Source of the DNA: Blastococcus haudaquaticus
Lineage (GTDB): Bacteria; Actinomycetota; Actinomycetes; Mycobacteriales; Geodermatophilaceae
Reading direction: 5' to 3'
Assembly (NCBI RefSeq): GCF_900230285.1
Contig: NZ_OCNK01000003.1
Span: 1 to 64,000, forward strand
DNA length: 64,000 nt
A program made the translations under genes and the position numbers. Under the pieces are notes generated by a model, which worked only from the letters and a program-made list of their open reading frames with translations, did not search any database and had not been told where the DNA came from. Below, in pieces: positions 3,941 through 57,194 of the stretch; the first letter of the stretch is position 1; the number at the start of each line of letters is the position of its first letter.

Positions 3941-5661
3941 TGGTGCAGCTGTCCCGCGAGCGCTACGCCCAGCTGTACGGCCCCACCACCGGCGACCGCG
4001 TCCGGCTGGCCGACACGAACCTGCTGATCGAGGTCGAGGAGGACCGCTGCGGCGGTCCGGGCCGGGCCGGCGAGGAGGCGGTGTTCGGCGGCGGGAAGGT
4101 GATCCGCGAGTCGATGGGCCAGGGCCGCGCGACCCGCGCCGAGGGCGCTCCCGACCTGGTCATCACCGGCGTCGTCGTCCTCGACCACTGGGGCATCGTC
4201 AAGGCCGACGTCGGGATCCGCGACGGGCGGATCGTCGCGCTGGGCAAGGCCGGCAACCCGGACACCATGGACGGCGTCCACCCCGCCCTGGTCATCGGTC
4301 CCGGCACCGAGGTGCTGGCTGGGAACGGGAAGATCCTCACCGCGGGTGGCATCGACTGCCACGTGCACTTCATCTGCCCGCAGATCGTCCCGACGGCGCT
4401 CGGATCCGGCGTCACGACCCTGATCGGCGGCGGCACGGGCCCGGCCGAAGGGTCGAAGGCGACCACGATCACCCCGGGGGACTGGTACCTCGCCCGCATG
4501 CTCGAGGCGATGGACCCGCTGCCGGTGAACGTGGCCCTGCTCGGCAAGGGCAACACGGTGCGGCGGGAGTCGCTGGTCGAGCAGCTCCGGGCCGGTGCGA
4601 GCGGGTTCAAGCTGCACGAGGACTGGGGATCGACGCCGGCCGCGATCGACGCCGCGCTGACCGTCGCCGGCGAGCACGGGGTCCCCGTGGCCCTGCACAG
4701 CGACACGTTGAACGAGGCCGGCTTCGTCGAGGACACCCTCGCGGCGATCGCCGGCCGGACCATCCACGCGTACCACACCGAGGGCGCCGGGGGCGGCCAC
4801 GCACCGGACATCATCACCGTCGCCGGCCACCCGAACGTGCTCCCCAGCAGCACGAACCCGACCCGGCCGCACACCGTGAACACGCTCGACGAGCACCTCG
4901 ATATGCTCATGGTCTGCCACCACCTGGACAGCTCCGTCCCCGAGGACCTCGCCTTCGCCGAGAGCCGGATCCGGCCGACGACGATCGCCGCCGAAGATCT
5001 GCTGCACGACCTGGGCGCGATCTCGATGATCGGGTCGGACGCGCAGGCCATGGGCCGGGTCGGCGAGGTCGTGCTGCGGACGTGGCAGACCGCGCACGTG
5101 ATGAAGGCCAAGCGTGGCTCGCTGGCCGGCGACGGCGCCGCCGACAACCTCCGGACCCGCCGGTACGTGGCCAAGTACACGATCTGCCCGGCCGTCGCGC
5201 ACGGGATCGACGGCGAGCTCGGCTCGGTGGAGCCGGGCAAGCTCGCCGACCTGGTGCTGTGGGACCCGAAGACGTTCGGGGTCCGGCCGCACGTCGTGCT
5301 CAAGGGCGGCATGATCGCCTGGGCCCAGATGGGTGACGCGAACGCGTCGATACCGACGCCGCAGCCGGTCCTACCGCGACCCATGTTCGGCGCCTACGGC
5401 AAGGTCCCGGCGCTGACGTCGGTGCACTTCGTCGCACCGGCGGCGATCGAGGCGGGGCTGGCCGACCGGCTGGCGATCGACCGGAGGCTCGTCGCGGTCA
5501 CCGACACGACGCGGCTGACCAAGGCGGACATGCCGCAGAACACCGCGCTGCCCGACATCCGGGTCGACCCCGACACCTTCACGGTGTCGGTCGATGGCGA
5601 GGTATGGGATGCCGAGCCGGTGCGCGAGCTGCCCATGGCCCAGCGCTACTTCCTCTTCTGA
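3940..5661 (+). CDS. ureC: Urease catalytic subunit alpha
   Basis: The catalytic subunit, 573 aa, of the amidohydrolase fold with a two-nickel centre. All key residues are present: nickel ligands His141 and His143 (CHVHF), the carbamylated Lys224 (GFKLHEDWG), His253 (ALHSD), His279 ([11 protein letters not shown]), flap Cys326 and the general-acid His327 (MVCHHLD), and Asp367 (GSDAQAMG). Numbers are offset by seven from the Klebsiella enzyme. The protein is full length with no frame break. It is coupled to ureB by a one-base overlap and followed 13 bases later by ureF. It should hydrolyse urea from the medium and urea released by the allantoicase encoded downstream. Confidence 0.98.
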
Positions 5662-19424: not shown

Positions 19425-20633
19425 TCAGCCAGGGAGCAGGGAGAGGAGCCGGGTCAGCGTGCGGGCGAGGACCGACGTCCCGACGCCGCCGTCGCCGGCC
19501 GCCGCGGAGTCCGCGGCCGACCCCACCGCCGTCCACCAGTCGTGCAGGGGTGGCGGGTCGAGGACGTCGATGCGCTCACCGGGCTGCGGGACGACGACCT
19601 CCGCGCCGGTCCGCGCGACGGCCGTCAGGAGGCGCTGCACCGGCTCGGCCCAGCGGTGGAACGCCAGGTTGAAGGTCGCCCAGTGGATCGGCAGCAGCAC
19701 CCGTCCTCCGAGGTCGCCGTGCGCGCGCGCCGCCTCCTCGGGGTCCATGTGGATCGCGTGCCAGGCGTCGTTGTAGGCGCCGACCGGCAGGAGGGTGAGG
19801 TCGAAGGGCCCCAGGCGAGCGCCGATCGCGGCGAACGCGGGGGTGTAGCCGGTGTCCCCGCCGAAGAAGACGCGGTGCCGTGGCCCAGCCAGCGCCCACG
19901 AGGCCCAGAGCGTGGTGTCGCGGTGGAAGTAGCGCCCCGAGAAGTGGCGCGCCTCGGTGCAGGTGAGCGTCAGCCCACCCACGGTGTGGCTCTCGTCCCA
20001 GTCCAGCTCGACGATGCGCTCCTCGGGCACGTGCCACTTGCGCAGGTGCTCGCCGATGCCGATCGGGACGACGAACGGCGCCGTCTGGGTGGTGAGCAGT
20101 GCCCGCACGGTCGGCAGGTCGAGGTGGTCGTAGTGGTCGTGCGAGATGAGCACGGCGTCGACCTGGGGGAGCTCCTCGAGGGGCATCGGGGGCTCGTGCA
20201 GGCGGGTGGGGCCGAACACCGGCGACGGCGAGACGCGGTGCCCCCACACCGGGTCGACCAGCACTCGCTGGCCGTCGATCTCGAGCAGGGCGCTGGCGTG
20301 CCCGAACCAGGTGACCGCCAGCTCGGCGGCGTCCGCCGGGATGGCCGCCCGCGACAGCGGGATCGGGCCGCCCGGCAGGCCGACGTGCCGCTCCTCGTGC
20401 CACTGCCGCAGCAGCCCGTCGCGGGTGTTGGCGGGGGAGAGGGCCGGCGTGGGCATCCGGTTGTGGAACTTGCCGTCGGAGAACTGTGCGGACCGGCTCA
20501 CGACGGGGCGCAGCCGGCGGCGGTGGGCGCCGAGGGCTGTCGGCAGTCCCCAGGCGGCTGCGGCGACGAAGCCCGCCGGGCCGGCGAGGATCGAGGCGAC
20601 GAGGGCGGCACGGCGGGCGATACGGGACGGCAC
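19425..20633 (-). CDS. Membrane-anchored metallo-beta-lactamase-fold hydrolase (UlaG/NAPE-PLD-like)
   Basis: A 402-aa protein from GTG 20633 with one N-terminal hydrophobic segment (residues ~8-30). The metallo-hydrolase domain follows: TWFGHASALLEIDGQRVLVDPVWG, the metal motif ISHDHYDHLD (HxHxDH), EARHFSGR, GGDTGYT and LLPIHWATF. The WFGH-S-LLEIDG-VLVDP start and the HWATFNLAFH end match the NAPE-phospholipase D-like branch, which acts on phosphodiester or lactone bonds. Substrate unknown. It is downstream of the ABC permease at 20759, separated by a 58-base palindrome. Confidence 0.85.
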   Translation of the reverse strand: MPSRIARRAALVASILAGPAGFVAAAAWGLPTALGAHRRRLRPVVSRSAQFSDGKFHNRMPTPALSPANTRDGLLRQWHEERHVGLPGGPIPLSRAAIPADAAELAVTWFGHASALLEIDGQRVLVDPVWGHRVSPSPVFGPTRLHEPPMPLEELPQVDAVLISHDHYDHLDLPTVRALLTTQTAPFVVPIGIGEHLRKWHVPEERIVELDWDESHTVGGLTLTCTEARHFSGRYFHRDTTLWASWALAGPRHRVFFGGDTGYTPAFAAIGARLGPFDLTLLPVGAYNDAWHAIHMDPEEAARAHGDLGGRVLLPIHWATFNLAFHRWAEPVQRLLTAVARTGAEVVVPQPGERIDVLDPPPLHDWWTAVGSAADSAAAGDGGVGTSVLARTLTRLLSLLPG

Positions 20634-20692
20634 GGTCCCAGCATCCCAGCCGGAGCTGCATGGCTGCTGTGAGCCGGGCGACGTTCCCGCGG

Positions 20693-20750
20693 CGAGATCT
20701 GCACACTCGCGCCCATCGAGGCGCTGATGAGGGCGAATGTGCAGATCTCG
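20693..20750. repeat. 58-base imperfect palindrome (copy 2 of hairpin family)
   Basis: Thirteen continuous pairs at the base (cgagatctgcaca with its complement), then a mostly paired upper stem, an apex CCATCG-N5-CTGATGA and a C-A mismatch. The length and apex are identical to the copy at 46682-46739, while several stem pairs differ in a compensated way. It lies between the ABC permease stop and the downstream hydrolase start. Confidence 0.8.
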
Positions 20751-20758
20751 GCGGACGG

Positions 20759-23230
20759 TCAGCCGGCGATGGCGGACACCGGCGACGTCCGGGCGGCGCG
20801 GCGGGCCGGCAGGACCGAGGCCAGCAGCCCGGCGACCGTGGCGACGGCGACTATCACGGCCACCTGCAGCCACGGCACCGACAGCACGATCTCGCCGATC
20901 TCGCCGAGCACGGAGGCGGCGCCGATGAGCCCGTACGCCCCGCCGACGAGGACCCCGAGCACCGCCGCCACACCTGCGACCAGCACCGCCTCCCAGGCCA
21001 GCAGCCCGCGCAGCTGGCCGCGGGTGAGGCCGAGCGCCCGCAGCAGGCCGTTCTCCTGCCGGCGTTCCACCACCGACAGCGCCAGGGTGTTGCCCACACC
21101 GATCAGGGCGATCAGCACGGCGATGCCCAGCAGACCGGTGACGACGAGCAGCAGCAGGTCGAGCACCTCGTCGATCTGGTCCCGCAGGGTCACCAGCCCG
21201 GTCACCTGCGCCGCCGGGTCGATCTCGGCGACGACGTCGGTGATCCGGTCGACGGCGCCGACCTGACCGTCCGGTTCGCCGTCGGTGAGGCGCAGCCACA
21301 GCTCACCCAGCCCCGTCTCGGGCGCGACGGCGCGCAGGTCGTCCGCGGTGAGCATCAGCGGCTGGCCGGAGTCGACCACCAGCGCGGTGAACGTGCGCTG
21401 TTGGCCGGGCGCGCCCAGGGCCACGGGATCGCCGTCCCGCACCGCCCACGTCTCGGCCAGCCACTCGGGGAGGAGCGCCTGACCGGGCACCGGCAGGGCC
21501 AGCTCCTCCGTCGACCGCAGGACCGGCTCCGTGGCGGCGGCGTCGACCCCGAAGGTCCACGTCGGCTGACCGTCGGGACCGGTGACGTCGGCGGAGATGA
21601 CGGCGGCCCCCCGGTCGACGCCGTCGAGGTCCTCCAGCGTCGCCAGCAGCGACGCCGGCAGGGCGCCGTCGAAGCTGCTCACCACGATGTCGGTGGGGAA
21701 CTCGGCGGCCAGCCCGGCCTGTGCCGTGGCCCTCGTGGAGGCCGCGCCGACGACGAAGGCGCTGGTCAGCGTGACGCCGATGAGCAGGGCCGTGGCGGTC
21801 GCCGCCGTCCGACGGGGGTTGCGGGTGGCGTTGCCGGCCGCGAGCTGGGCCGGGACCCCGCCGAAGCGCCCGGCGAGCCGGCCGGCGGCCGCGACCACGG
21901 GCGGAACGGCACGCTGGGCGAGCAGCACGATGCCCAGGAAGCTCAGCACCCCACCGGGCAGCGCGATCAGCACCTGCCCCATCGCCACGCCCAGGGCCAT
22001 GAGGCCGACGCCGGGCAGCAGGAGGAGCAGGCCGAGCACCAGCCGCAGCACCCCCGGCCGGGAACGCAGCGGCGCCGGATCCACCGGCCGCAGCGCGGCC
22101 AGCGGCGCGACGCGGGTGGCGGCGCGGGCGGGGGCGAGGGCGGCGAGCAGCGTCACCAGCGTGCCGACCAGCACGCCGGCGACCGGCGCGTACCAGGGGA
22201 TCGACAGCCCGGTCAGGGGGATGGGCGACTCGCCGCCACCGGCGAGCGCGGACACCGCGGCAGCCAGCCCGATGCCGGCTGCGACGCCGATCGTGGAGGA
22301 GGCCAGGCCGGTGACCACGGCCTCGCCGAGGACGCTGCGGCGCACCTGCCGGGCCGTGGCGCCGACGCAGCGCAGCAGGGCGAGCTCACGGGTCCGCTGG
22401 GCGAGGAGGACGGCGAAGGTGTTGGCGATCACCAGCCCGGCGACCAGCACGGCGACCGTGCCGAACACGAGCAGCACCGCGGCCAGGGCCGTCGTGTTGC
22501 CCATCATGGCCGCGGCGGCGTCCGCCGCGCGCTCGGAGCCGGTGCGCACCTCGACCGGCCGGTCGCCCAGGGCGGCGGCCGTATCGGTGCGGACCTGCTC
22601 GTCGGAGAAGCCGGGAGCCGCGGCGACGCGCAGCTCGAGGGGATCGGCCGCACCCCATTCACGGGCCTGCTCGGGCGTGACGAAGGCCCGGCCGTAGAGC
22701 CCGGCCTCCGGGTCGCCGCTCAGGTCGACGATGCCGGTGACGGTCACCTCCGACGTGGACTCGTCGCCGGCGGCGTCGTAGGTGGTCACGGTGAGGACGT
22801 CGCCGACGGCGGCCCGCGCGCGGTCGCTGACAGCGACCTCGCCGGGACGGTCGGGCAGCGCGCCGTCGGAGACCCGCTGCCACCGCAGCGCGGGGTCGTC
22901 GGCGACGGTGCCGACGAACAGGTACTGGGAGCCGGTGCGGCCGGGGACGGCGGCCTGGATCGACGTCTCGAAGGAGGGCGCGACCGCGGCGACCGAGGAC
23001 AGGCCGGCGACCGCGTCGGCGTCGTCGGCGAGGGAGGAGCCGTCGTCGGAGGTCACGACCGCGGCCGCGCCCACGTACTGCGCACCGACGGCGTTCAGCA
23101 CGGTGCTCCGGGCGGTCTCGTTGAGCACGAGCGTGGCCACGACGAAGCCCACCGCGATGACGACGGCGAGGGTCGAGGCCAGCAGGCGGGCGACGTGCGC
23201 CCGCACCTGGGCGAAGAGGACGCTGCGCAC
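20759..23230 (-). CDS. MacB/FtsX-type ABC transporter permease
   Basis: A large permease of 823 aa with two FtsX domains. It has an N-terminal membrane helix (residues ~14-38), a long extracytoplasmic MacB_PCD-like domain (~50-230), three helices around 255-390, a second extracytoplasmic domain (~470-670) and three final helices (~690-815). There is no ATPase domain; the ATPase is encoded three bases upstream (23234-24007). Such pairs move lipoproteins, peptides or antibiotics away from the membrane or act in envelope stress rather than import. The cargo is unknown. The downstream NarL-type two-component system could regulate it. Confidence 0.88.
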   Translation of the reverse strand: MRSVLFAQVRAHVARLLASTLAVVIAVGFVVATLVLNETARSTVLNAVGAQYVGAAAVVTSDDGSSLADDADAVAGLSSVAAVAPSFETSIQAAVPGRTGSQYLFVGTVADDPALRWQRVSDGALPDRPGEVAVSDRARAAVGDVLTVTTYDAAGDESTSEVTVTGIVDLSGDPEAGLYGRAFVTPEQAREWGAADPLELRVAAAPGFSDEQVRTDTAAALGDRPVEVRTGSERAADAAAAMMGNTTALAAVLLVFGTVAVLVAGLVIANTFAVLLAQRTRELALLRCVGATARQVRRSVLGEAVVTGLASSTIGVAAGIGLAAAVSALAGGGESPIPLTGLSIPWYAPVAGVLVGTLVTLLAALAPARAATRVAPLAALRPVDPAPLRSRPGVLRLVLGLLLLLPGVGLMALGVAMGQVLIALPGGVLSFLGIVLLAQRAVPPVVAAAGRLAGRFGGVPAQLAAGNATRNPRRTAATATALLIGVTLTSAFVVGAASTRATAQAGLAAEFPTDIVVSSFDGALPASLLATLEDLDGVDRGAAVISADVTGPDGQPTWTFGVDAAATEPVLRSTEELALPVPGQALLPEWLAETWAVRDGDPVALGAPGQQRTFTALVVDSGQPLMLTADDLRAVAPETGLGELWLRLTDGEPDGQVGAVDRITDVVAEIDPAAQVTGLVTLRDQIDEVLDLLLLVVTGLLGIAVLIALIGVGNTLALSVVERRQENGLLRALGLTRGQLRGLLAWEAVLVAGVAAVLGVLVGGAYGLIGAASVLGEIGEIVLSVPWLQVAVIVAVATVAGLLASVLPARRAARTSPVSAIAG

Positions 23231-42907: not shown

Positions 42908-43249
42908 ATGGAACGCGTGATGCCGCAGCAGGTGCCGACCGTCTCCGTGAGCGAACTGCCCGACGACGCGGTGATCCTCGACGTCCGCGAGGACGACGAG
43001 TGGGTGCACGGCCACGCGGAGAGCGCGACGCACATCCCGATGGGCGACGTGCCGCCGCGGCTCGACGAGCTCCCCGACGCCGACCCCCTCTACGTCATCT
43101 GCCGCAGCGGCGGGCGCTCGGCGCGGGTGGCCGCCTGGCTGAACCAGAACGGGTTCGACGCGGTGAACGTCGCCGGTGGCATGGGCGAGTGGGAGGCGGC
43201 CGGCAAGCCGATGGTGAGCGAGACCGGCCAGCCCCCCTTCGTCCGGTAA
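42908..43249 (+). CDS. Rhodanese-like single-domain sulfurtransferase
   Basis: A 113-aa rhodanese domain. The core is VSELPDDAVILDVREDDEWVHGHAESATHIPMGDVP, then the active-site loop VICRSGGRSARVA with the catalytic Cys, and the end VNVAGGMGEWEAAGKP. The loop CRSGGRS is intact, so persulfide transfer from a donor is possible. Starts at 42908, 42917 or 42920 all give a complete domain. It is convergent with the CoA ligase, and the gap holds a cluster of palindromes. Confidence 0.9.
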   Translation: MERVMPQQVPTVSVSELPDDAVILDVREDDEWVHGHAESATHIPMGDVPPRLDELPDADPLYVICRSGGRSARVAAWLNQNGFDAVNVAGGMGEWEAAGKPMVSETGQPPFVR

Positions 43250-43270
43250 CGAGGGGCCCGTCCGACAACG

Positions 43271-43345
43271 AGGGGCCATAGTGGCCACTTCGGCCCCTCC
43301 AGGGGTCGGTTCCCGACCGGAGCAGGGGCCGTAGGGGCCACGTCG
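43271..43345. repeat. Palindrome cluster between convergent genes (GGCC family, two copies plus hairpin)
   Basis: Copy one (43271-43298) is aggggccatagtgg followed by a near-complement. A small hairpin ggtcgg-ttc-ccgacc (43305-43319) follows, then a decayed second copy (43325-43348: ggggccgtagg, ggccacgtcggcc). The same motif is a perfect palindrome at 11999-12022. Likely a bidirectional terminator. Confidence 0.6.
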
Positions 43346-45680: not shown

Positions 45681-46319
45681 TCAGCGCAGACGGCGGACGC
45701 GCAGCACCACGTCGTCGGTGTGGTGCGCGCCGGCGCCGCCCTCGGGCGCGACGCGCGGCCTCTGCTCGTCCACCTCCACCTGCCAGGCGTCGTCGAGGAG
45801 GGCCGCCACCATCGAGGGCCAGACGTAGTCGGCCGGGTCGAAGTCCCCGTCGTGCGCCTCCTGGGCTTCCATCCCCGCGTGGTGCACGAGCAGCAGGACG
45901 CCGCCCGGCGCCACCGCGTCGAGGAGGGCGCGCTCCGCGGCGGCGTCCGGGGTGCGGAGCAGGGCCGGGTACTGCGCCGACACGAGGTCGAAGGACCGCG
46001 GCGGCAGCGCCGCCTCGGCCAGGCCGGCGTGCACCCAGTGGACCTCGACGCCGGCGTCGCGCGCGTGCCCGGCGGCCCGCTCCAGCGCGACGCCGGAGAC
46101 CTCGAGGGCCGTGACGTCCCACCCGTTGCGCGCCAGCCACACGGCATCGGCGCCCTCGCCGCAGCCCACGTCGAGGACCCGCCCGGGCGTCATCCCGGCG
46201 ACCTCGGCCACGAGAGCGCCGTTGGGTCGGCCGCTCCACAGCTGCTGCCGGTCGGCATACCGCCGGTCCCATTCCGCCTGCACCGCGGGGTCTCCCACGT
46301 AGTCGTCGGTCACCCGCAC
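45681..46319 (-). CDS. Class I SAM-dependent methyltransferase (tellurite/thiopurine type)
   Basis: A 212-aa SAM enzyme. Motif I is VLDVGCGEGADAVWLARNGWDVTALEVSGVALERAAGHA, followed by FDLVSAQYPALLRT and GGVLLLVHHAGME. The opening DDYVGDPAVQAEWDRRYADRQQLWSGRPNGALVAEV matches the TPMT/tellurite-resistance methyltransferase group. The substrate is not set by sequence. The start (GTG 46319 or 46313) lies inside the 3' end of the truncated P450 frame, so the remnant's end is fused against this gene. Confidence 0.88.
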   Translation of the reverse strand: MRVTDDYVGDPAVQAEWDRRYADRQQLWSGRPNGALVAEVAGMTPGRVLDVGCGEGADAVWLARNGWDVTALEVSGVALERAAGHARDAGVEVHWVHAGLAEAALPPRSFDLVSAQYPALLRTPDAAAERALLDAVAPGGVLLLVHHAGMEAQEAHDGDFDPADYVWPSMVAALLDDAWQVEVDEQRPRVAPEGGAGAHHTDDVVLRVRRLR

Positions 46320-46642
46320 AGGCTGAGGCCGCGCACCCCGGATCGGCTACTCCCGTTGCTGATCAGCCGGCGCAGTCGCGTGTGGTCCGGCGGCTCCATC
46401 TCCAGGATCGCGTTCCGGTGGATCAGGTTGAAGCTCGCGAACCGCTCGCCGGGCTCCTTGTCCTGCCAGATCCGGCCCAGCCGGCGGTCGCGGAGGACGG
46501 CGTTGGACTCGGCGTGCGTGAAGGCCAGCCAGAGGCCCAGCCCCTCGTGCCACTGGACCGGCGCCGCCTGCCGGGCCCGGACGAACGAGGGGTACGGGTC
46601 CGCGACGACGGACGCATCGGCGAGATCGAGCGGGGTGGTCAC
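46310..46642 (-). pseudogene. Cytochrome P450 N-terminal remnant
   Basis: A 110-codon frame from GTG 46642 reads like the first ~95 residues of a bacterial P450: ADPYPSFVRARQAAPVQWHEGLGLWLAFTHAESNAVLRDRR, then the helix-C motif EPPDHTRLRRLIS. It then breaks into unrelated residues (NGSSRSGVRG...) and stops inside the methyltransferase start. The remaining ~300 residues, with the ExxR and the heme-cysteine loop, are absent. A P450 without heme ligation cannot work. This looks like a deletion that joined a P450 start to the methyltransferase gene. It may still supply the latter's promoter. Confidence 0.82.
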
Positions 46643-46681: not shown

Positions 46682-46739
46682 CGACTTCTGCGTTCTCGTG
46701 GCCATCGGGGGACTGATGACCACGAGAACGCAGAACTCG
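46682..46739. repeat. 58-base imperfect palindrome (copy 3 of hairpin family)
   Basis: Same length, apex (CCATCG-N5-CTGATGA) and conserved C-A mismatch as the copy at 20693-20750, but with different, compensated stem bases. It lies between the P450 remnant start (46642, minus) and the SEC-C gene start (46802, plus), so in a divergent gap rather than at a gene end. Confidence 0.8.
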
Positions 46740-46801: not shown

Positions 46802-47734
46802 ATGGCTTCCCGCAAGCGCTCCTCCGCCCCCGCTGCCACCGCGCCGGAGGGCATCAACCCGAAGGCCCCGTGCTTCTGCGGCTCCGGGCGTCGCTACAAG
46901 CACTGCCACGGCTCGGGTTACGCCCCGCCGGTGAGCCGGCCCTTCGAGGGTCTGCCCGGCGAGCCCGACTGGGTGGCGCTGCGGGAGCTCGTGCCGGCGG
47001 CCACCGCCACCCTCCGGACGACGGACGGCCGGGAGGTCACCCTCGCGAGCGTGCTGCCCGGCGGCACGCCCGCCCTCGTGCGGGCCAACGGCGAGATCGT
47101 GGTCGGCGTCCAGATGCAGACCTCCTCCGACGACGTCAGCCGGGACATCGGCACCGCCCTGGCCGCCGCCCTCGAGGCGCCGGCCGGGGCCCCCGTCGAC
47201 CCGGGCCCGATCGGTGCCGCCGGTTCCGCGGGTCCCCGCCTGCAGGAACTCCTGGACGTGTCCGCGCCCTTCGAGGTCGTGGTGCACGACGACTTCGCCT
47301 TCTGGCTGGAGGGCACCGAACCGAGCCAGGCGGCGCTGCACGGCCTGGAGCACGCGAACGAGGCGGTCCTGCCGACCGTCCGGCTGCCGGGGCTCGAGGC
47401 CGCCTACTGGGTGCGGCCGGGCAGCGAGCGCGCGCACCTGCGCTGGGTGCGCCCGGAGCCGGAGGAGGAGCTCCTCGACGCGCTCGCCCGGCTCTCGGCG
47501 TCGGAGCAGATCCTGCTCGGTGAGGGGACCCGCTACGCCGGCGCCTTCCGCGCGCTCGGCCTCGTCGTCCCCGTGTGGGACCTCCCCGCCGACGTGCCGG
47601 CCGAGGAGTGGATCGGCCCGGCGACGGAGTTCCAGACCCGGCTCGAGCAGGCGCTCACCGTCACCGAGCCGCTCACCAGCGACGAGCGGCGGGCCCGCGC
47701 CGGCCTGATCTCGCGCCAGATCACGCTGCGCTGA
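46802..47734 (+). CDS. DUF5926 family protein with SEC-C metal-binding motif
   Basis: A 310-aa protein from ATG 46802. The N-terminus (residues ~15-45) has the SEC-C zinc motif INPKAPCFCGSGRRYKHCHG. The rest is the actinobacterial DUF5926 region (TLASVLPGGTPALVRANGEIVVGVQ, FEVVVHDDFAFWLEG, ISRQITLR at the end). SEC-C motifs come from SecA and mediate zinc-dependent partner or nucleic-acid contact. No enzymatic role is known. It is read towards the arabinose regulon but separated from it by 230 bases that hold an independent promoter. Confidence 0.8.
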   Translation: MASRKRSSAPAATAPEGINPKAPCFCGSGRRYKHCHGSGYAPPVSRPFEGLPGEPDWVALRELVPAATATLRTTDGREVTLASVLPGGTPALVRANGEIVVGVQMQTSSDDVSRDIGTALAAALEAPAGAPVDPGPIGAAGSAGPRLQELLDVSAPFEVVVHDDFAFWLEGTEPSQAALHGLEHANEAVLPTVRLPGLEAAYWVRPGSERAHLRWVRPEPEEELLDALARLSASEQILLGEGTRYAGAFRALGLVVPVWDLPADVPAEEWIGPATEFQTRLEQALTVTEPLTSDERRARAGLISRQITLR

Positions 47735-57119: not shown

Positions 57120-57194
57120 GGGCCAAAGTGGCCATTTCGGCCCGTCTCGTCGGACGTTCCGCTCCGGCAGATGGCCAAAATGGTCACTTTGGCC
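57120..57194. repeat. Palindrome pair between convergent genes (GGCC family)
   Basis: Copy one (57120-57143) is gggccaaagtgg followed by ccatttcggccc, which pair with two mismatches (G-T type). Copy two (57172-57194) has atggccaaaatgg then tcactttggcc. They flank a short spacer between the araA (57114) and M20 (57199) stops. Related to 11999 and 43271. Likely a bidirectional terminator. Confidence 0.6.

Follow-up and report, generated by a model that had tools for sequence, protein, structure and literature searches.

Palindromes Scattered among the Genomes of Soil Bacteria Are Most Likely Docking Sites of an Enzyme Rather than RNA Hairpins

Introduction

AbiEi is an autorepressor whose binding site consists of two inverted repeats of 23 bp separated by 3 bp, and Rv2827c (1zel) is named as an AbiEi homologue (PMC3985639). 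The palindromes described here resemble this operator, the AbiEi box, in being long two-fold-symmetric inverted repeats near the gene of a protein with an AbiEi-like N-terminal half. However, this half is here fused to a nuclease, palindromes occur on both sides of the gene as well as genome-wide, and no AbiEii toxin was recognized among the neighbours of 30 nuclease loci, clustered and read by eye, which include purS, purC, a hydrolase, smpB, and ftsX. A second point of comparison is the homing endonuclease I-Bth0305I (3r3p), which we take to be a member of the Vsr-like family; its catalytic domain resembles the nuclease half, and the gene described here lies at sites that are elsewhere a bare palindrome. 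Unlike in the case of I-Bth0305I, the gene is bounded by two whole palindromes, many solo copies are found per genome, and no intron or intein context was noticed.

The REP/RAYT system is similar in arrangement, with one palindrome-flanked gene and many solo palindromes, mostly intergenic near gene ends and some in ORFs. Nevertheless, the enzyme here is unrelated, the repeat is palindromic over its full 58 nt, and the REP tag, described in PMC3733652 as an unpaired GTAG or CGTC at one end, is absent from the 272 flanks of 136 copies. The RPE of Rickettsia can likewise lie in frame within a coding gene, here a glycosyltransferase-like one, but measures ~150 bp rather than 58 nt; moreover, one gene is concerned here so far, and a candidate enzyme is linked to the repeat. 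Finally, the U-lacking (I-shaped) bidirectional terminators of high-GC bacteria share with these palindromes a stable hairpin past stop codons that is common between convergent genes, whereas the palindromes form a conserved sequence family that co-varies with a protein and is also found in divergent gaps and inside a gene. A search of the literature turned up no paper that deals with these palindromes or with a DUF559 gene flanked by palindromes.

Two Palindromes in the Window

The window, i.e., the whole 64,000-nt stretch of DNA that was analysed, contains two solo palindromes, A and B, which lie among their neighbours as follows:

19425-20633, minus strand: metallo-hydrolase gene, neighbour of A, called start 59 nt from A
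20693..20750, no strand assigned: solo palindrome A, 58 nt, CGAGATCTGCACACTCG stem type
20759-23230, minus strand: FtsX-domain permease gene, neighbour of A, its stop 8 nt from A
46310-46642, minus strand: short ORF, cytochrome-P450-like by reading, neighbour of B in the divergent gap
46682..46739, no strand assigned: solo palindrome B, 58 nt, TTCTGCGTTCTCGTGG stem type
46802-47734, plus strand: DUF5926/SEC-C gene, neighbour of B in the divergent gap

A preliminary description, made from the sequence alone, had reported both palindromes as exactly 58 nt long, A following a gene end and B lying in a divergent gap. The length and the contexts were confirmed, A being placed 8 nt past a stop codon, and the six stem pairs described as compensated between the two copies (5/54, 11/48, 12/47, 13/46, 18/41, and 20/39) are all correct. 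Three further differences, absent from that description, are uncompensated, namely 4/55 (C-C in B), 14/45 (C-A in A), and 19/40 (G-G in A). A and B have the same apex and the same C-A mismatch at pair 21/38, as had been noted, but neither is a feature of the family: this pair is C-G in 41, T-G in 13, and C-A in 12 of 94 copies of 58 nt. In A, pairing runs three positions further out, one of them possibly mismatched, which yields an inverted repeat at 20690-20753. Folding z-scores on the two strands amount to -6.7 and -8.0 for A and to -9.6 and -10.7 for B, and none of 200 shuffles equalled either strand of either palindrome. The statement that no named family matches also held in Rfam, which gave no match at the gathering score for A or B, while permissive Rfam searches returned only microRNA and sRNA models far under their cut-offs.

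Two minor observations concern other parts of the window. The ORF at 46310-46642, of 110 aa and without a Pfam match, was read as a cut-short cytochrome P450 and is followed by a methyltransferase-like gene. Moreover, the Rfam model 5_ureB_sRNA matches positions 4104-4396 of the minus strand at 40.2 bits, against a threshold of 40.

Family, Spread, and Paired Stem Changes

In the genome to which the window belongs (G000), a pattern search found 12 places, from which a covariance model, R1, was built; R1 in turn finds 22 places with E < 1e-7 in this genome, plus a weak one at E 0.6. A covariance-model search of the genomes of the bacterial family, named beforehand as a check, uncovered many more copies in relatives: 67 of 96 genomes, covering 9 of 12 genera, are matched one or more times at E 0.01 by this model, which favours the CGAGATC stem type. 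Among 394 genomes drawn from the class, nine match at E 1e-4 under stricter filters, the seven of these outside the family being weak. A set of 136 copies comprises all 22 of the own genome, 30 from 29 relatives (the best copy of each plus one second copy at one of those loci), and a further 84 that come for the most part from three genomes, L127 having been removed as a duplicate of L180.

The compensatory change of stems first described for A and B generalizes to the family. In 62 copies, hand-chosen among the 94 of 58 nt (set A5, copies of 55-57 and 59 nt being excluded), 19 of 26 pairs display double changes, 91.4% of cells are paired, and 144 cells carry a double change, against 50.3 ± 5.1 in shuffles and at most 36 in slid controls, although the structure was derived from the same sequences and relatedness inflates such counts. 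The same pattern is seen at orthologous positions, where stems differ yet mostly pair, both at the smpB-ftsX site of five genomes (gene names by reading) and at the rplT/RNA methyltransferase gap of four. Thus, at the sequence level, the palindromes form a family with paired stem changes. Such mirrored changes would also be forced by a protein site of two-fold symmetry, so that covariation alone is no proof of a fold.

The idea that the arms act as uptake sequences or half-sites was considered and discarded. Palindromes contain the arm AGATCTGCA 12 times, and it is found nowhere else in 304 kb; as only 0.46 occurrences would be expected there by chance, this absence shows just the lack of a pool of single arms. 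Of nine arm motifs tried, one (CGGCGATCTCGCC) is seen once outside palindromes.

A Nuclease Gene Bounded by Two Palindromes

Among 11 neighbouring copy pairs within one locus, six, found in five genomes, surround one type of gene, which encodes a protein of ~275 aa, with a spacing of 930-942 bp (1073 bp in G047). Of the remaining close pairs, one encloses a metallo-hydrolase gene, one a glycoside-hydrolase-like gene, and the others no called gene. A composite transposon between other close copy pairs was rejected, the genes in between being ordinary by reading. A profile of the six nucleases detects DUF559-type homologues in all 96 family genomes, with a clear score gap, and a close version in 48 of them at a cut of E 1e-85 chosen by the analyst, G086 with its partial gene (2.6e-56) being scored as lacking it. 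Searches of phages at E 1e-10 found no homologue, and plasmids yielded two distant ones at E 1e-15.

Fifty close loci represent 47 of the 48 genomes, with two loci each in G021, G076, and G028, G072 being left out because of a contig end. Palindromes whose scores exceed the 99th percentile for 198 control windows lie upstream of the gene in 44 loci, downstream in 42, and on both sides in 38. The end of the upstream palindrome is 98-112 nt from the nuclease start in 43 of 44 loci (182 nt in the other one), and the downstream palindrome starts at -3 to +35 nt relative to the stop. The motif TGTGGA lies just inside the upstream palindrome in 25 of 26 cases examined, counted in the first 30 loci only, and the autonomous unit is ordered as palindrome, ~105 nt with this conserved motif, nuclease gene, and palindrome. 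The two ends of one locus are alike (mean 41.8 versus 18.2 between loci, p 8e-23), with the own partner ranked first in 18 of 38 loci and no lower than sixth in any of them; between lineages the stem varies, yet the ends of one locus match. Flanking of the gene at near-fixed distances and matching of its ends are both evident in the sequences of these loci.

The encoded protein consists of an AbiEi-like DNA-binding N-terminal half (PADLOC AbiEi 1.6e-15; Pfam AbiEi_1 in only two of six members, best 0.033) and a C-terminal DUF559/REase_MTES_1575 half (Pfam DUF559 2.8e-9), which is the better conserved of the two (mean identity 0.71 versus 0.57). In Foldseek searches with an AlphaFold2 model (pLDDT 89.6), the top match is 1zel (probability 1.00, E 1.2e-3, TM 0.43), and further matches include 3r3p (probability 1.00, E 0.018, TM on target 0.76) and 3hrl (probability 0.99); these E-values are weak (all of them 0.001 or higher), and chains of the mitoribosome are interspersed among the named matches in the ranking. 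By sequence, 3hrl is matched at 1.6e-7 and 3r3p at 0.62. Moreover, the 26-6-26 geometry of the 58-nt palindrome is similar to that of the AbiEi site.

Co-Variation, Co-Occurrence, and Alternation of Nuclease and Palindromes

The palindrome varies together with the N-terminal half of the nuclease. For the 46 of 50 loci that have a full-length match and are flanked by one or two palindromes, the palindrome correlates with the N-terminal half given the nuclease half (partial Mantel r 0.475, p 0.001) and shows no correlation with the nuclease half given the N-terminal half (r -0.022, p 0.63). In 23 genomes, solo copies are nearer to the nuclease flanks of their own genome than to those of others (p 5.6e-4), the own flanks being among the best 6 of 45 in 15 genomes; in the other 8, the solo copies found with R1 are unlike the own flanks.

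Across the 96 genomes, the close nuclease and at least three palindrome matches, counts that include those flanking the nuclease, occur together in 46 genomes, matches only in 14, the nuclease only in 2, and neither in 34 (Fisher 3.5e-12; within-genus permutation p 2e-4); at a threshold of five matches, the corresponding figures are 46, 11, 2, and 37. Within genus g7 (18 genomes), all five genomes with the nuclease have at least six matches, G086 combines seven matches with its partial gene, and the other 12, without the close nuclease, have at most one. Since 14 of 48 genomes without the close nuclease keep at least three matches, with 39 in G085, persistence of palindromes in the absence of the enzyme must be assumed.

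The location of the gene is also variable. It lies beside purS in 22 of 30 loci (names by reading) and elsewhere between smpB and ftsX in three g7 genomes, next to a murB-like neighbour in G021, and at other sites in G002, G028, and G076. The smpB-ftsX site holds a full copy in G047, G042, and G071 and a solo palindrome in G000, G048, G028, G085, and G068; the purS site, full in those 22 loci, is solo in G085, which lacks the close nuclease; and a third site is full in G028 and G076 and solo in G073. Co-variation with the N-terminal half, alternation of solo and full states at three sites, and co-occurrence across genomes are patterns read directly from genome sequences. The smpB-ftsX alternation fits the insertion of the gene at an older solo site, and that at purS the loss of the gene, which would leave one palindrome.

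With regard to the window itself, site A is also occupied in G076, G034, and G019, and the nuclease-flanking palindromes nearest to A are those of G076 (L328). Gap B holds copies with other stems in G057, G011, and G028, and the nuclease-flanking palindrome nearest to B is that of G019 (L353). The nuclease was not found in the 60 loci fetched around sites A and B in relatives.

Proposed Mechanism and Its Implications

The palindromes are probably double-stranded DNA sites recognized by a mobile AbiEi-DUF559 endonuclease, with A and B as solo sites. By analogy with AbiEi, we infer that the nuclease binds the palindromes as double-stranded DNA, each site consisting of two ~26-bp half-sites around a centre of ~6 bp. 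The enzyme would cut at or near the palindrome, and repair from a full copy would carry the gene into the solo site, i.e., homing. In turn, recombination between the two end palindromes would delete the gene and leave a solo site. The nuclease gene would thus live between two copies of its own site, solo sites would be either landing pads or remnants, and the covariation of stems would reflect drift in specificity. Recognition of this kind needs both half-sites to be changed together, so that RNA-like covariation would arise without RNA. Several results speak against this reading: the lack of a clean target-site duplication, the genomes that keep palindromes without the close nuclease, the solo copies unlike their own nuclease flanks in 8 of 23 genomes, the different contents of the remaining close pairs, the weak Foldseek E-values, and the failure to find the nuclease around sites A and B in relatives.

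It is also possible, though slightly less likely than not, that these units represent a novel type of mobile element in prokaryotes that has neither transposase nor intron, in which the homing site of an AbiEi-DUF559 endonuclease is its long palindromic operator-like box, many solo copies per genome serve as landing pads, and nuclease specificity and site sequence co-evolve continuously. If the endonuclease reading is right, dispersed palindromic repeats would have an enzyme in genomes without RAYT transposase, and protein-DNA co-evolution would be a source of RNA-like covariation, a warning for covariance-based RNA discovery. Furthermore, the family would provide a natural series of nuclease-site pairs with shifting specificity. 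DUF559 is listed as of unknown function in Pfam, and homologues of its type occur in all 96 family genomes searched; a role for it is now directly testable.

Genomic Context and Alternative Explanations

According to gene calls from an own codon-usage script, 48 of the 136 copies are convergent, 63 tandem, and 18 divergent, and 7 overlap a called gene. Among the 129 intergenic copies, 92 are no more than 30 nt away from a stop codon, versus 23% under random placement in other gaps, with a median distance of 8 nt in the 111 copies that have an adjacent 3' end; convergent gaps hold 48 of the 129 copies and make up 10 of 89 control gaps. A nuclease site would not in itself lead one to expect such a strong enrichment at 3' ends, which counts against the endonuclease reading. 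The position just past stop codons may be tolerated or selected, and this clustering of solo copies leaves room for an additional terminator or 3'-end role.

These data are the main argument for regarding the palindromes as U-less, often bidirectional terminators or mRNA 3'-end hairpins that spread as repeats under selection for the RNA fold, an alternative that we consider unlikely. The window offers it a parallel: the hairpin after the 5S rRNA gene (98-132) is perfect and has no U tract, and other long hairpins here also lack one, so that U-less terminators may be normal here; structured 3' ends lacking U are reported for Streptomyces (PMC8269248). By contrast, ribosomes repressed an E. coli terminator placed a few bp past a stop codon (PMC4824070). 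As the preliminary description had pointed out, a simple terminator does not account for every copy, given the 18 divergent ones and 3 of the 7 overlapping copies that lie in frame in one glycosyltransferase-like gene, where they are read RDLH...CADLA. Neither does the transcribed strand appear privileged in the 53 tandem copies beside a 3' end: 52 G-U versus 38 A-C mismatches on the sense strand give no significant excess in this test of modest power (binomial p 0.17), sense and antisense folding energies display no bias (p 0.81), and the T fraction in the following 12 nt averages 0.13, with a maximum of 0.42, short of a U tract. The flanking of the nuclease gene and the co-variation with its DNA-binding half are also left unexplained by terminators. 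Thus, the strand-preference results make selection on an RNA hairpin less likely, and the earlier conclusion that covariation is evidence of selection on an RNA hairpin or cruciform is unsupported, given these negative strand tests and a stem whose sequence changes together with the DNA-binding half of the nuclease.

Another alternative is an AbiEi-like regulon, in which the protein would be a regulator, the palindromes its operators, and the DUF559 part incidental. The proven autorepression by AbiEi on inverted repeats (PMC3985639) and the palindrome upstream of the nuclease gene are in its favour. Nevertheless, it is distinctly unlikely in view of the position of most examined copies just past genes, the better conservation of the nuclease-like half, the near-constant distance of the upstream palindrome from the start codon, and the several different sites of the gene.

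More doubtful still is a REP/MITE-like palindrome moved in trans by a classical transposase, with the nuclease as a passenger. Dispersed short palindromes, some of them in frame, do recall REPs and the RPEs of Rickettsia, as described in PMC3733652 and PMC10969869. However, the co-variation is with the AbiEi-DUF559 protein, the flanks bear no GTAG or CGTC tag, and no transposase was recognized by reading between the close copy pairs examined. RAYT transposition in particular was rejected: a search for transposases of the Y1/HUH family (PF01797) drew a blank in all 96 family genomes, whereas 5 of 14 controls were positive.

Lastly, neutral quasi-palindrome correction, a template switching in replication that yields paired changes without selection, would account for arms that are often near perfect whatever their sequence but is very improbable, as it explains neither the sequence common to the sites of one genome, nor the matching nuclease ends, nor the co-variation with the protein.

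Turnover at Orthologous Sites

Across 153 orthologous gaps common with G043, the 58-nt copy is present in five of the own genome and in none of G043. At site A, G043 has an unrelated composite palindrome, and in other gaps, other palindrome families are swapped between the two species. A probable site in common lies outside the 153 gaps (own C6:267488 and G043 C1:233162). This combination of common and unshared occupancy indicates that some palindrome sites are old while others come and go. Comparisons of filled and empty sites by eye, made between diverged species, yielded neither a clean target-site duplication nor an empty site that is exact, and the 272 flanks of the 136 copies give only a weak C-G-G/A preference as an insertion-site motif.

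The in-frame glycosyltransferase (GT9) copy is present in 7 of 40 orthologues, the 40 being those of 55 loci that yielded the region, and the GT9 tree requires six changes, three of them forced by supported branches. These copies were set aside as proof of repeated insertion, sister species showing, by eye, remnant-like in-frame stretches at this place.

Two convergent gaps of the window also differ from their G043 counterparts. A long palindrome (GGCCAAAGTGGCC...) fills the gap at 57121-57194, where G043 has an unrelated CTTGTGCTCTGCCCACC-type palindrome. At 43240-43341, two 19-nt tandem units are followed by a GGCC-rich palindrome; in G043, this gap is gone and the two genes overlap.

Paralogues and Further Palindrome Types

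More distant DUF559 loci may have palindromes of their own. Under loose cut-offs, 15 of 21 such loci, from three genomes, have candidate palindromes on both sides, and in 8 of these 15 the two ends match each other better than any other; L392 and L393, two of the eight, have GC-rich terminator-like hairpins and are weaker evidence. In addition, BLAST detected single solo copies related to two of the paralogue palindrome types. Paralogues with their own palindrome pairs suggest a general arrangement, and several scattered palindrome families may be sites of such enzymes.

Individual loci illustrate the range of forms. In G031, a close nuclease (L374) lies between quite different, AT-richer palindromes (TTGGTGATCTTGACCTT...) at both ends, and the genome has no R1 matches. 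The composites L289 (G043:C1:23763-23850) and L299 (231212-231305) consist of TGATCAG...CTGATC units around a GGGTCCTGGCTCA hairpin, and similar pieces flank the DUF559 paralogue L380. The GAGTGAGCAGTTGCGGTCGCC palindrome, solo at G000:C6:152371, is also found at both ends of a DUF559 paralogue (L378/L379), with which it apparently forms a second nuclease-palindrome pair.
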